A stretch of DNA of 64,000 bases from Ilyomonas limi (lineage in GTDB: Bacteria > Bacteroidota > Bacteroidia > Chitinophagales > Chitinophagaceae), in assembly GCF_005233845.1 (NCBI RefSeq), contig NZ_SZQL01000001.1:124001-188000 (forward strand). The letters are read 5' to 3'. How positions within the stretch are numbered: position 1 is the first letter of the stretch; the number at the start of each line of letters is the position of its first letter. The notes beneath the pieces were generated by a model. That model saw only the letters and a program-made list of their open reading frames with translations. It did no database searches and was not told the DNA's origin. Position numbers and translations under genes: made by a program. Positions 3,217 through 35,957 of the stretch are shown here, in pieces.

Positions 3217-4410
3217 CTATTTACTCAGGTGCATACTACGCTCCTTATACAGCGTACGGAAATAAGGATCGCGCAAGTCTTTAATAAAACGAATCGCTTC
3301 GCCGGTACTTTTCATTTCAGGCCCTAATTCTTTATTCACATTCGGGAATTTATTAAAGCTGAAAACAGGTTCTTTTATTGCAAAGCCGTTCAGCTTTTTC
3401 TCTATTGTAAAATCCTTCAGTTTGGCAGCGCCGAGCATTACCTTGGTAGCAATGTTCAAATAAGGAATCTGGTATGCTTTAGCAATAAACGGCGTAGTAC
3501 GACTGGCACGCGGATTGGCCTCTATCACATACACTTTACCATCTTTTATAGCAAACTGAATGTTGATTAACCCACAGATATTCAACGCGCGGGCAATCTT
3601 TTCGGCGTAATACTCCATAGTAGTAATAACCAGTGGCGTAAGGTTGAATGCCGGTAGTACTGCATTGCTATCGCCACTGTGAATACCTGCCGGCTCTATG
3701 TGTTCCATTACGCCCATCACATGAAAATCTTCACCATCAAAAATAGCGTCTATTTCTGCTTCCTGGCAGCGGTCGAGGAAATGGTCAATGAGAATTTTAT
3801 TGTTGGGAATGTGCTTCAATAAACTCACCACTGCTTTTTCAAGCTCATCATCATTAATCACAATGCGCATGCGCTGACCGCCCAATACGTAGCTGGGGCG
3901 CACCAATACCGGATAACCCACCTGGTTAGCCACTTCAATTGCTTCATCAGCAGTAAAGGCAGTTCCATATTCCGGATAAGGAATATTCAATTCCTTCAGC
4001 AAATCGCTAAAGCGGCCGCGGTCTTCGGCGATGTCCATACTGTCGAACGACGTACCGATAATTTTGATGCCGCGCTCGTGCAGGCGCTTTGCAAGCTTCA
4101 GTGCGGTTTGCCCGCCAAGCTGTACAATTACGCCTTCAGGCTTTTCCAGCTCAATAATTTCCCAAAGGTGTTCCCAATATACCGGCTCGAAATACAGCTT
4201 GTCTGCCATATCAAAGTCGGTAGAAACCGTTTCGGGATTGCAGTTGATCATAATGGCTTCGTAGCCACATTCTTTAATTGCCAGCAGGCCGTGCACGCAG
4301 CAATAATCAAACTCAATACCCTGGCCAATGCGGTTGGGACCGCTACCCAATACAATAATTTTTTTCTTTTGCGATGGAATAGATTCGTTGGAAGAAAGTG
4401 TGTTGCTCAT
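3217..4410 (-). CDS. carB: Carbamoyl-phosphate synthase large subunit, C-terminal synthetase half only
   Basis: The 397 residues match the second ATP-grasp half of CarB, the half that phosphorylates carbamate for pyrimidine and arginine synthesis. Visible landmarks are the GSGPNRIGQGIEFDY segment (about 22-36), the LGGQTAL segment (about 98), the ATP-grasp region with RPSYVLGGQRM (about 170), EAEIDAIFDG and VIEANPRASRT (about 310). A normal large subunit has about 1,050-1,080 residues with two such halves and a C-terminal MGS regulatory domain. Here the first half and the MGS domain are absent. The gene has its own ATG, and the 157 bases upstream show no decayed N-terminal half. A separately encoded partner elsewhere would be needed. 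Split carB is known from some archaea and Aquifex. Confidence 0.88.
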   Translation of the reverse strand: MSNTLSSNESIPSQKKKIIVLGSGPNRIGQGIEFDYCCVHGLLAIKECGYEAIMINCNPETVSTDFDMADKLYFEPVYWEHLWEIIELEKPEGVIVQLGGQTALKLAKRLHERGIKIIGTSFDSMDIAEDRGRFSDLLKELNIPYPEYGTAFTADEAIEVANQVGYPVLVRPSYVLGGQRMRIVINDDELEKAVVSLLKHIPNNKILIDHFLDRCQEAEIDAIFDGEDFHVMGVMEHIEPAGIHSGDSNAVLPAFNLTPLVITTMEYYAEKIARALNICGLINIQFAIKDGKVYVIEANPRASRTTPFIAKAYQIPYLNIATKVMLGAAKLKDFTIEKKLNGFAIKEPVFSFNKFPNVNKELGPEMKSTGEAIRFIKDLRDPYFRTLYKERSMHLSK

Positions 4411-32075: not shown

Positions 32076-32873
32076 TTATAAAACAATATACACTTTACCG
32101 CCTCGCTCATTAACCGGGTAAGTGGCAATGTTCTCTTTTGCCGGACCGGCTTTTACTGCTCCGGTTGTTACATCAAAATGAGAACCATGCCACGGACATT
32201 GCACCGTGCCGCAAATCATGGCGCCACCGGCAAGGGAGCCACCCCGATGCGTGCAACGGTCATCGAAAGCCACATAGTTATTTTCTGTTTTGGCCAAAAC
32301 AATGCGTTTTCCGTTGATGTGCAGCAACTTCATCTGGTTCAGCTTAAGTTCATCAGTATTAGCCACTTCAATTTCCTTATCTGAGGTATGTATCCGTTCT
32401 TCTTTCCATTTGCCGGCATTGGCATAGCGCGGGTCAACGCCTATCTGGTTACGATATACCAATGTTCCGCCCAGCCAGCCCGCAAAAAGCATGATTACAA
32501 AACCAACCAGTTCCAGACCAGTGATAAGATAGTAGGAATTGTGTTCCCCGCGCTTTAAGAGCCAGGCAATAAAAAACAGGATTAAAGTAGTGGTATTCAG
32601 CAATCCGTGTTTGGTAGCCCGCGTTTTGGCAGAGCTTTCGGGAGGTACGGTGTACAAATAATCTATAAAACCTGCAATCGCCGCTAAGACCGCTCCAATC
32701 ATGCCGGCAATACTCATATAATAGGCAGTTACACTAAAACCGTCTCTAAAATTCGGTTTATCGCTCAACATTGCCAGCACATCAAACAATAAAGTACCTG
32801 TGAAAAATGCGATAGGAAAGGCAACAAGGATGGGATGGATAGGATGCGATTTTATTTGTGCAGTGCTTCTCAT
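32076..32873 (-). CDS. DUF2231 membrane domain fused to a Rieske [2Fe-2S] domain
   Basis: The N-terminal half of this 265-residue protein is a DUF2231-type four-helix membrane domain (HPIHPILVAFPIAFFTGTLLFD, about 10-31, and further TM segments near 50-70, 92-108 and 117-138). The C-terminal half (about 165-265) is a Rieske ferredoxin fold with both cluster ligand pairs, CTHRGG (about 209) and CPWHGSH (about 227). This makes a membrane-tethered electron carrier. DUF2231 proteins with redox domains occur in several phyla, but the partner is unknown, and no quinone or oxygenase partner is adjacent. Confidence 0.9.
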   Translation of the reverse strand: MRSTAQIKSHPIHPILVAFPIAFFTGTLLFDVLAMLSDKPNFRDGFSVTAYYMSIAGMIGAVLAAIAGFIDYLYTVPPESSAKTRATKHGLLNTTTLILFFIAWLLKRGEHNSYYLITGLELVGFVIMLFAGWLGGTLVYRNQIGVDPRYANAGKWKEERIHTSDKEIEVANTDELKLNQMKLLHINGKRIVLAKTENNYVAFDDRCTHRGGSLAGGAMICGTVQCPWHGSHFDVTTGAVKAGPAKENIATYPVNERGGKVYIVL

Positions 32874-33143: not shown

Positions 33144-33385
33144 ATGAACACTAACCAACGTGCAAAAAATGAAAAAGCATTTGAAACATGGATAGAAAAA
33201 AGAAGATGGGGGAAGAATTTATTCGTTTGAAGTAGCCGGTAAATTGGGGTGGAAGGCTAAATATTTGAAAGAGGTAAACAGCAAAGAAGAAACTATACGA
33301 TTCTGGCAGGAGATTTATGATGAACATAATATTTTGAGAGATACATGAAAAATATCCTGTAGATAAAGGACATAAAAAGCTTTAA
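33144..33385 (+). pseudogene. Decayed small gene, two frameshifts (about 80-codon protein of unknown function)
   Basis: Reading from ATG 33144 gives 24 residues up to TWIEKRR before the frame fails. The +1 frame then continues with DGGRIYSFEVAGKLGWKAKY and on to FWQEIYDEHNILR. A second shift then gives EIHEKYPVDKGHKKL and a stop at 33383-33385. The first lesion lies in the A/G homopolymers at about 33196-33212, the second in the GAGAGA run at about 33336-33341. The three pieces join into one coherent charged protein of about 80 residues. I do not recognise a function. It is followed two bases later by a second broken small gene. Confidence 0.7.
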
Positions 33386-33387
33386 AA

Positions 33388-33648
33388 ATGATTACAAAAG
33401 CTATAATAGCAGAAGAGTTGCTTGCTTATCTGCAGCATCGTTTATCAATAAACGGGTTAGTAGATTAGGCAGAGCAAAAATTGATGGAAGGAGCTTATGA
33501 AGATGACCAATTCCACACTGTTAGAAACATTTTAGCGCGGCTTGGTTTGGCTGATGTAAAAACCTTCGGGCTTGAATACCAAGATTGTGAGGCTATTATG
33601 CAACAACTTGGCTATACATTGGAAGTAAAGGCTTTATCGGTTGCATAA
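33388..33648 (+). pseudogene. Decayed small gene with in-frame amber stop (86-codon protein of unknown function)
   Basis: From ATG 33388 the frame runs 86 codons to TAA 33646-33648 but carries one TAG at 33466-33468 (codon 27). The residues on both sides of this stop read smoothly: AEELLAYLQHRLSINGLVD before it, and then a helix-rich tail with FHTVRNILARLGLADVKTFG and an LGYTLEVKAL end. A single base change from TGG would explain the lesion. The pairing with the preceding broken gene (two-base gap) suggests the two once formed one small operon. Downstream in-frame ATGs exist, so a shortened product of about 55 residues cannot be excluded. Function not recognised. Confidence 0.7.
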
Positions 33649-33839
33649 AATCTGGCGCAAGCATCTGCTTGTGCCGGGGGTAAATTTTCTTTTTTATTGA
33701 TCTACACCAATCCTCAAATAGTACCCAAACTCAAAAACAATTCTTAAATAACATCTCCCTTCACCCAATCTTCCGGATTTCGCAATACGGTACACTTGTT
33801 TACGGTTATTTTTGCCGATTAATATAAAGAAGTACTGGC

Positions 33840-35957
33840 TTGGCAGCAAAACATTTGAATATAGCCCTCGTAGGCAACCCCAATTCCGGCAAATCATCTC
33901 TCTTTAACGCATTGACAGGCCTTAACCAAAAGGTGGGCAATTTTCCTGGCGTAACGGTAGATAAAAAAACCGGCTACAGCCAGTTGGATGATACAACAAC
34001 TGCCAACATTATTGACCTGCCCGGCACGTACAGCCTCTATCCCCGCCGTGCCGACGAGTGGGTGGCTTATAAAGTACTAATGCACGCAGATGCTGAAATT
34101 AAACCCGATGTGATTTTGCTCATTGCCGATGCGAGTAATCTCAAGCGTAATCTCCTTTTTTGCAGTCAGATTATTGATTTGAAATATCCTGTAGTAATAG
34201 CCTTAACCATGATGGATATTGCCCGCAAAAAAGGTTACGAAATTGACATCAATGAACTGGAAAGAGAGTTGGGCGTGCCCGTTATTCCTATAAATCCACG
34301 AAAAAATAAAGGTATTTCTCAGGTAAAAAAAGCTTTGTTACAAACGGCGAAGCAAAAGTATCTGGCTCCCAAGTTCGACTTTATTGCCAATAAAGAACTG
34401 GCTTCTTTTGCAGTAGATGGTGTTAAGAAATTAGTACCTCACCTCAGCGATTATGCAGCCGTTCATTACCTCATCAACCACGAGAATTTTCCGCTGGACG
34501 ATTTGACTCAAAAGGCAATTGAACACGTAGAAGTTACCAACGGCTTCAATCCTGTAAAAACGCAGGCAGACGAAATTGTGCAGCGTTATACACGCATCCG
34601 GCAAATCATGCAGCAGAGCGTGGTAGAGCCCGATCCGCTGCAGAAGAAATTATTTACCGAACAATTAGACAATATTTTACTCCATCGCGTTTGGGGCTAC
34701 ACTATTTTGTTAGCAGTTTTATTTTTATTGTTCCAAAGTATTTTTTGGCTGGCGCAATACCCAATGGAGTTTATTGACTGGAGTTTTACTAAACTCAACA
34801 GCGCACTCAGTGATGTATTGCCGCAAGCCTGGTGGAGCGATTTGCTCACTAATGGCGTACTCGCCGGCTTAAGCGGCATATTGGTATTTGTGCCGCAAAT
34901 AATGATATTGTTTGGGCTGATAACCATTCTGGAAGATACCGGCTACATGGCGCGCATTTCTTTTCTTAGTGACAGGGTGATGCGGAAAGTAGGCTTAAAC
35001 GGCAAAAGTGTGATGCCTATGATTAGCGGTTTTGCTTGTGCTGTACCGGCAATCATGAGCGCCCGTAATATTGAAAACAGAAAAGAGCGCCTGCTGACCA
35101 TTATGGTTACGCCGCTCATGAGTTGCAGTGCACGATTACCGGTTTATACCATATTGATTGCCCTTGCTATCCCCAACCGTTACTACTTTGGTTTTTTAAG
35201 CCAGCAGGGTTTGGTAATGATGGGCTTGTATTTATTGGGTTTTGTAATGGCGCTTATCGTAAGCTATGTAATGAAATGGATGATAAAGCTACAGGAAAAG
35301 AGTTTTTTCATTCTGGAATTGCCGGTGTACCGCGCTCCGCGTTGGAAAAATGTAGGCATTACAATGGTTGAAAAAGCCAAAATATTTGTTACCGATGCCG
35401 GCCGCGTGATTATTGTTATCAGCCTGTTGCTGTGGTTTTTAAGCAGTTATGGGCCTACCCGCAGGATGAACGCAATAGATACTAAATATGCGCAACTGGA
35501 GCAGCAGGTTTCTACGCCTAATGCTAAAGCTGCAATAGAAAAAGAATATAAAACCGAAAAGCTGCAAAACTCTTTTGCAGGTATTGCCGGCAGAGCCATC
35601 GAGCCGGTGATTGCGCCTTTGGGCTTCGATTGGAAAATTGGTATTGCGCTCATTACTTCTTTTGCCGCACGCGAAGTGTTTGTCGGCACCATGGCTACGC
35701 TGTACAGTGTGGACGAAAGCGACGATGTCACGCTCAAACAAAAGATGCAAAATGCTACGCGTACCGATGGCAGCAAAGTATATACGCTGCCCACAGCGCT
35801 GTCGCTCATGGTGTTTTATGTACTTGCCATGCAGTGCATGAGCACGCTTGCCATTACCAAGCGCGAAACCCGCTCGTGGAAGTGGCCGGCAATACAGTTT
35901 ACCTACATGACCGGGCTTGCATACCTAATGAGTTTTATTGTGTATCATATTTTTTAA
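33840..35957 (+). CDS. feoB: Ferrous iron transporter FeoB
   Basis: The 705 residues comprise an N-terminal GTPase domain with G1 GNPNSGKSS (about 12-20), the NFPGVTVDKKTG switch I region (about 36), G3 DLPGTYS (about 60) and a G4 position that reads TMMD instead of the usual NxxD (about 124). A helical regulatory part follows. Two Gate domains then bring eight or so membrane helices (from about 285), with the conserved SGFACAVPAIMSAR (about 396) and FAAREVFVGTMA (about 607) elements. It imports Fe2+ across the inner membrane. The start is TTG 33840; no upstream ATG fits. No feoA lies beside it. A possible G-U-rich hairpin terminator follows at 35963-35995. Confidence 0.94.
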   Translation: MAAKHLNIALVGNPNSGKSSLFNALTGLNQKVGNFPGVTVDKKTGYSQLDDTTTANIIDLPGTYSLYPRRADEWVAYKVLMHADAEIKPDVILLIADASNLKRNLLFCSQIIDLKYPVVIALTMMDIARKKGYEIDINELERELGVPVIPINPRKNKGISQVKKALLQTAKQKYLAPKFDFIANKELASFAVDGVKKLVPHLSDYAAVHYLINHENFPLDDLTQKAIEHVEVTNGFNPVKTQADEIVQRYTRIRQIMQQSVVEPDPLQKKLFTEQLDNILLHRVWGYTILLAVLFLLFQSIFWLAQYPMEFIDWSFTKLNSALSDVLPQAWWSDLLTNGVLAGLSGILVFVPQIMILFGLITILEDTGYMARISFLSDRVMRKVGLNGKSVMPMISGFACAVPAIMSARNIENRKERLLTIMVTPLMSCSARLPVYTILIALAIPNRYYFGFLSQQGLVMMGLYLLGFVMALIVSYVMKWMIKLQEKSFFILELPVYRAPRWKNVGITMVEKAKIFVTDAGRVIIVISLLLWFLSSYGPTRRMNAIDTKYAQLEQQVSTPNAKAAIEKEYKTEKLQNSFAGIAGRAIEPVIAPLGFDWKIGIALITSFAAREVFVGTMATLYSVDESDDVTLKQKMQNATRTDGSKVYTLPTALSLMVFYVLAMQCMSTLAITKRETRSWKWPAIQFTYMTGLAYLMSFIVYHIF

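Follow-up and report, generated by a model that had tools for sequence, protein, structure and literature searches.

What are the two small broken genes that lie side by side in the genome of Ilyomonas limi, and what does their decay say about the function of their intact relatives? In the window, by which we mean the whole stretch of 64,000 nucleotides analysed, an initial annotation had described two adjoining genes of about 80 and 86 codons, two bases apart, the first with two frameshifts (one in a homopolymer, one in a GAGAGA run) and the second with a TAG at codon 27. The coordinates confirm the layout, and all three lesions could be located:

33144-33385, + strand: ORF1 pseudogene, about 80 codons, putative toxin, two frameshifts (reading frames; 33-member alignment)
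33196-33201, + strand: lesion 1, a run of A at which the ORF1 frame changes (post-lesion frame from 33202)
33336-33341, + strand: lesion 2, a GAGAGA run, second change of the ORF1 frame (reading frames)
33388-33648, + strand: ORF2 pseudogene, 86 codons, putative antitoxin, one in-frame TAG (reading frames; 38-row alignment)
33466-33468, + strand: TAG at ORF2 codon 27, the site of the family's invariant Trp (alignment)
33651-33678, + strand: strong GC hairpin and T-rich stretch just after ORF2, possible terminator (hairpin scan)

ORF1 extends from an ATG at 33144 to a TAA at 33383-33385, and ORF2 from an ATG at 33388 to a TAA at 33646-33648. With the lesions bridged, ORF1 is 81% and ORF2 82% identical to the intact genes of locus L007, from a Mucilaginibacter metagenome-assembled genome (MAG), and the identity of both proteins is 65-71% against L002, where a second genome of the host's family carries the two genes intact and adjacent; because of this identity to intact adjacent pairs, neither can be a chance frame. 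The Trp replaced by the TAG is invariant in all 38 aligned relatives. No second copy of the pair exists in the host genome, which measures 5.88 Mb in 70 contigs and is 100% complete. A search of genome contigs with ORF2 gave no match, probably because the peptide patterns used were too window-specific. At the pair's borders no convincing repeats were found in the window. The hairpin, a single copy within the window (1 found against 0.8 expected in shuffles), is not common to the pair's relatives, homology stopping before it. The upstream neighbour, on the minus strand at 32076-32873, is presumably a Rieske/DUF2231-type membrane gene, and the downstream one, at 33840-35957, we take to be a feoB-like ferrous-iron transporter gene, both having been named by eye. 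Elsewhere in the window, a 397-residue frame on the minus strand (3217-4410) corresponds, by eye, to only the C-terminal half of the large subunit of carbamoyl-phosphate synthase, with the N-terminal half not adjoining it.

Sequencing error is an unlikely source of the lesions, because three separate ones fall within 500 bases and one of them is a plain substitution. If all were errors, the pair would be intact in this strain, a reading that concerns the window copy and not the function of the family. Two of the lesions do sit in short repeats, which are error-prone on some platforms, and a comparison of the window copy of ORF2 with that of L007 (dN 0.10, dS saturated) indicates constraint until recently. 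Against this, the lesions are independent, the substitution has struck an invariant Trp, the large flanking genes have uninterrupted frames and the host assembly is complete and clean, and we regard an intact pair in the strain as very unlikely. The same low dN alongside saturated dS implies that for most of its history after the split the window copy was maintained by selection, and was lost only afterwards; judged from these distances, the loss of both genes is recent on the family's time scale.

Using ORF1 as the query, we scanned 84,980 species genomes and recovered 49 loci, almost all from MAGs. ORF2 lies directly after ORF1 on the same strand in 47 of them, always in the order ORF1 then ORF2, with gaps mostly of -4 to +12 bases and often a four-base overlap. 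The other two loci (L050 and L054) hold ORF1 fragments only; at L027 the contig end cuts ORF2, and at L053 both genes are broken. That intact homologues should always stand side by side if the pair were a module had been proposed as a check on the initial annotation, and it is borne out across at least 13 phyla (Bacteroidota, Chlorobiota, Verrucomicrobiota, Planctomycetota, Pseudomonadota, Myxococcota, Thermodesulfobacteriota, Chloroflexota, Nitrospirota, Bacillota, Acidobacteriota, Hydrogenedentota and Bipolaricaulota), a list in which single entries could reflect MAG binning errors. Small, adjacent, co-oriented genes kept across distant genomes are one mark of type II toxin-antitoxin systems. 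The inter-genome distances of ORF1 and ORF2 are correlated (Mantel r 0.71, with 0 of 5000 permutations as high). Among 396 genomes of the host's own family, the only other carrier is that of L002, where the pair is intact and adjacent.

Outside the pair, very little is shared. DNA similarity between the window and L007 is confined to 33144-33644 (78.5%), and L009 and L002 behave similarly. When genes in the stored flanks were clustered, the pair itself was recovered in 41-44 loci and everything else fell into sporadic groups of 3-4 loci, among them HicB-like genes, Uma2 and others; no further neighbour gene was shared across loci, and 139 neighbour genes were scattered over 132 Pfam families. 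Because homology stops at the pair's borders and no neighbour recurs more than sporadically, the pair is, as read from its sequence context, a self-contained, patchily spread and horizontally moved unit. Only 3 of 296 Bacteroidota genomes were positive (counting the window's own and one with only a remote fused relative), as were 3 of 145 Verrucomicrobiota genomes (the centre genome counted among the 3). On the concatenated tree, which is moderately supported, the phyla are mixed: 16 changes are required, where the minimum is 12 and shuffling gives a mean of 23.6. A patchy, horizontally acquired distribution is a second mark of type II systems and is also seen here.

Decay among the relatives is strikingly one-sided. 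We classified lesions per gene in all loci, leaving out L008, whose ORF1 has no clear start codon. ORF1 alone was broken in eight loci (L009, L031, L035, L043, L049, L051, L052 and L055), each with a full-length ORF2, and ORF2 alone in none (two-sided sign test, p ~0.008). A search based on ORF1 would miss broken copies of ORF1 and not of ORF2, a bias that opposes this result; the two genes are of nearly equal length, and MAG errors, from which some of the broken copies may stem, should strike both equally. Loss of ORF1 only, 8 to 0, is what would be expected if ORF1 were harmful and ORF2 protective, and it agrees, albeit in a small number of cases, with a third mark of type II systems, that decaying copies lose the toxin before the antitoxin. 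The asymmetry also bears on another explanation, in which the two genes encode the subunits of some accessory function, regulatory or metabolic, in an ordinary operon that is patchy because it is dispensable. Such an operon would suit a pair that has no known family and for which no mobile-element link emerged, the pair not being found in collections of phage, plasmid and viral contigs. However, it fails to predict the repeated loss of ORF1 with retention of ORF2, and no metabolic neighbourhood is common across phyla; we consider it unlikely.

In the predicted structure of ORF1 (pLDDT 90.8), a single helix accompanies six antiparallel strands. The protein is often basic (median pI 8.0), and 17 positions are invariant in the 33-row alignment (N9, E10, R24, Y26, G32, G35, A38, Y40, K42, E48, F53, Q55, E56, H68, K70, P72 and H77). 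Four pairs of these, R24/Y26, Y40/K42, F53/Q55 and H68/K70, occupy alternating positions on successive strands of the predicted sheet and so probably line one of its faces, which may be an active or RNA-binding face. These residues are all still encoded in the ORF1 pieces of the window. No ORF1 family was found in Pfam, NCBIfam, PADLOC or PHROGs, the PDB holds no sequence relative, and searches of PDB and viral folds with the model gave no significant match. ORF2 is acidic (median pI 4.6) and is predicted to be all-helical, with four helices (pLDDT 87.9); W27, E29, D56, F60, G61, L74 and G75 are invariant in 38 rows. It likewise has no family in Pfam, NCBIfam or PADLOC, no sequence relative in the PDB and no recognisable DNA-binding domain. 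Neither protein matched any known toxin or antitoxin family.

The initial annotation had likened the pair to a toxin-antitoxin module, and the 8-to-0 decay, the patchy horizontal spread and the contrast in charge between the two proteins strengthen this inference. Speaking against it are the missing match to known families, the unconvincing fold matches of ORF1, the apparent want of a DNA-binding domain in ORF2 and the failure to find the pair in the plasmids and phages searched. Toxin-first type II systems such as HigBA, HicAB and BrnTA have overlapping or closely spaced genes and a patchy horizontal spread. The pair shares their tight spacing and patchy spread and, on our assignment of roles, their gene order, but matches none of them as a sequence family; whereas most type II antitoxins bind DNA through a domain of their own, ORF2 has none that we recognise.

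Gene size and a C-terminal His motif had suggested that ORF1 might belong to TumE, and profile comparison rejected this: the TumE profile (PF20126) found no match among 33 ORF1 proteins, and in hhalign the probability of a relation between ORF1 and eight TumE proteins was 0.2%. The likeness is one of size and general design. TumE-TumA (DUF6516, PF20126) is also a small two-gene module with a patchy spread and no confident PDB match, and TumE also combines alpha with antiparallel beta structure and has conserved histidines near the C-terminus. TumE has been demonstrated to inhibit protein synthesis, and it mostly lies downstream of its partner, in clusters 1, 2, 4 and 6 (PMC10584680). In contrast, ORF1 is always upstream of its partner. 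The TumE fold sets two helices on an antiparallel sheet of seven strands; the ORF1 model has one helix and six strands.

Structure offers a hint in another direction. The BECR RNase fold is outlined as an N-terminal helix followed by an antiparallel beta meander (PMC3482391), and this order, found in RNase toxins such as RelE, barnase and colicin D/E5, in which the sheet bears the catalytic residues, agrees with the ORF1 model, although no recognised BECR RNase stands out among its structural matches. In the PDB search with the ORF2 model, the top row was the colicin D immunity protein ImmD (Z 6.4, 75 residues, rmsd 3.0), a score below the caution level for helical bundles, which reach such values by chance; both proteins are all-helical, of 86-88 residues. 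Together, these resemblances could be read as a toxin-immunity cassette, either a remnant of secreted polymorphic toxins or feeding them, in which ORF2 would be an immunity protein of the colicin D type. However, profile comparison does not bear out membership of ORF2 in colicin D immunity (PF09204), with no Colicin_immun match and an hhalign probability of 3% against three members of that family. The colicin D toxin is moreover a delivered one, whereas intact ORF1 is a standalone protein of about 80 residues that showed no domain for secretion or delivery. We hold this reading to be very improbable.

Single-chain relatives also bring the two domains together. G669 (L058, 874-1992) encodes a 372-residue protein in which membrane stretches can be made out by eye. 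Residues 210-268 of this protein make up a diverged ORF1 domain (E 3e-9 when one sequence alone was searched, 2e-5 when the genome was), and an ORF2 domain comes after it at residues 295-365 (E 2e-11 and 1e-7, respectively). The ORF1 half of this fusion lacks the H68/K70/P72/H77 block. G661 (L104, 922-2052) holds a relative of this protein, and G922 (L105, 657-1932) holds another that is partly broken and split over two frames; both are likewise membrane-anchored single chains in which the two domains are diverged and the ORF1 half has no conserved His/Lys block. The occurrence of both domains in one chain supports the view that the separate ORF1 and ORF2 proteins would touch.

Such a membrane-anchored fusion would also suit a phage-defence pair acting by abortive infection, in which ORF1 stops growth only once a phage inactivates ORF2, and that possibility accounts equally well for the scattered distribution, for the frequent loss and for a decay asymmetry of the kind expected of a toxin. 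Neither gene, however, has a PADLOC family, and neighbours of toxin-antitoxin or defence type (for example, Uma2) are merely scattered; we judge abortive infection to be quite unlikely. At several copies, genes of known toxin-antitoxin families (HicB, HepT, ParE, Phd/PIN and RelB) do occur no more than 1.2 kb away. We counted 12 small genes of such families in ~109 kb near the pair against ~14 in ~267 kb further out, the latter figure extrapolated from 9 such genes among 120 small frames sampled out of 190. They are thus about twice as dense beside the pair, a weak and at most suggestive element of context.

Individual loci vary in what adjoins the pair. At L009 (1700-1900), the frame that stops immediately 5' of the ORF1 start is of DUF433 type and antitoxin-like, and it is apparently truncated there. 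At L056 (442-1124), an intact pair adjoins a Phd/YefM-PIN (VapC-like) toxin-antitoxin pair, and at L053 (5400-5720), the doubly broken pair is directly upstream of a HicB-HicA-like pair.

We therefore consider it probable that the two genes of the window are the decayed remains of a toxin-antitoxin module of two genes that spreads horizontally and whose family is absent from current libraries. In such a module, the upstream ORF1 would be the toxin, its invariant polar residues on neighbouring strands being arranged as in RNA-cutting toxins, and it would probably halt growth by attacking RNA or translation, perhaps in the manner of an RNase. The downstream ORF2 would be the antitoxin, probably binding ORF1 directly and masking its invariant face. 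We infer the toxicity of ORF1, its neutralisation by ORF2 and RNA as the target from the features described above. The host genome would then have lost both genes through frameshifts and a stop. That the module had become dispensable here, as the initial annotation suggested, sits well with the loss in the window and the frequent, recurrent loss of ORF1 elsewhere, both of which fit a non-essential module.

Taken singly, the window copy is a decayed module of an ordinary kind; the family to which it belongs appears to be undescribed in the libraries compared. The chances seem to us about even that it constitutes a wholly undescribed toxin-antitoxin family, with a standalone toxin that is about 80 residues long and has no relatives among known toxins, a helical antitoxin that does not bind DNA, a range of at least 13 phyla and, in one Bacteroidota genus, a membrane-anchored single-chain derivative whose toxin half lacks the conserved His and Lys. 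If the proposal is correct, two families that are unnamed in Pfam, NCBIfam and PADLOC, and mostly known from environmental metagenomes, would gain the standing of a testable toxin-antitoxin system with a range of at least 13 bacterial phyla. Decay asymmetry itself offers a simple, cheap genomic cue as to which member of an unknown gene pair is the toxin and which the antitoxin.
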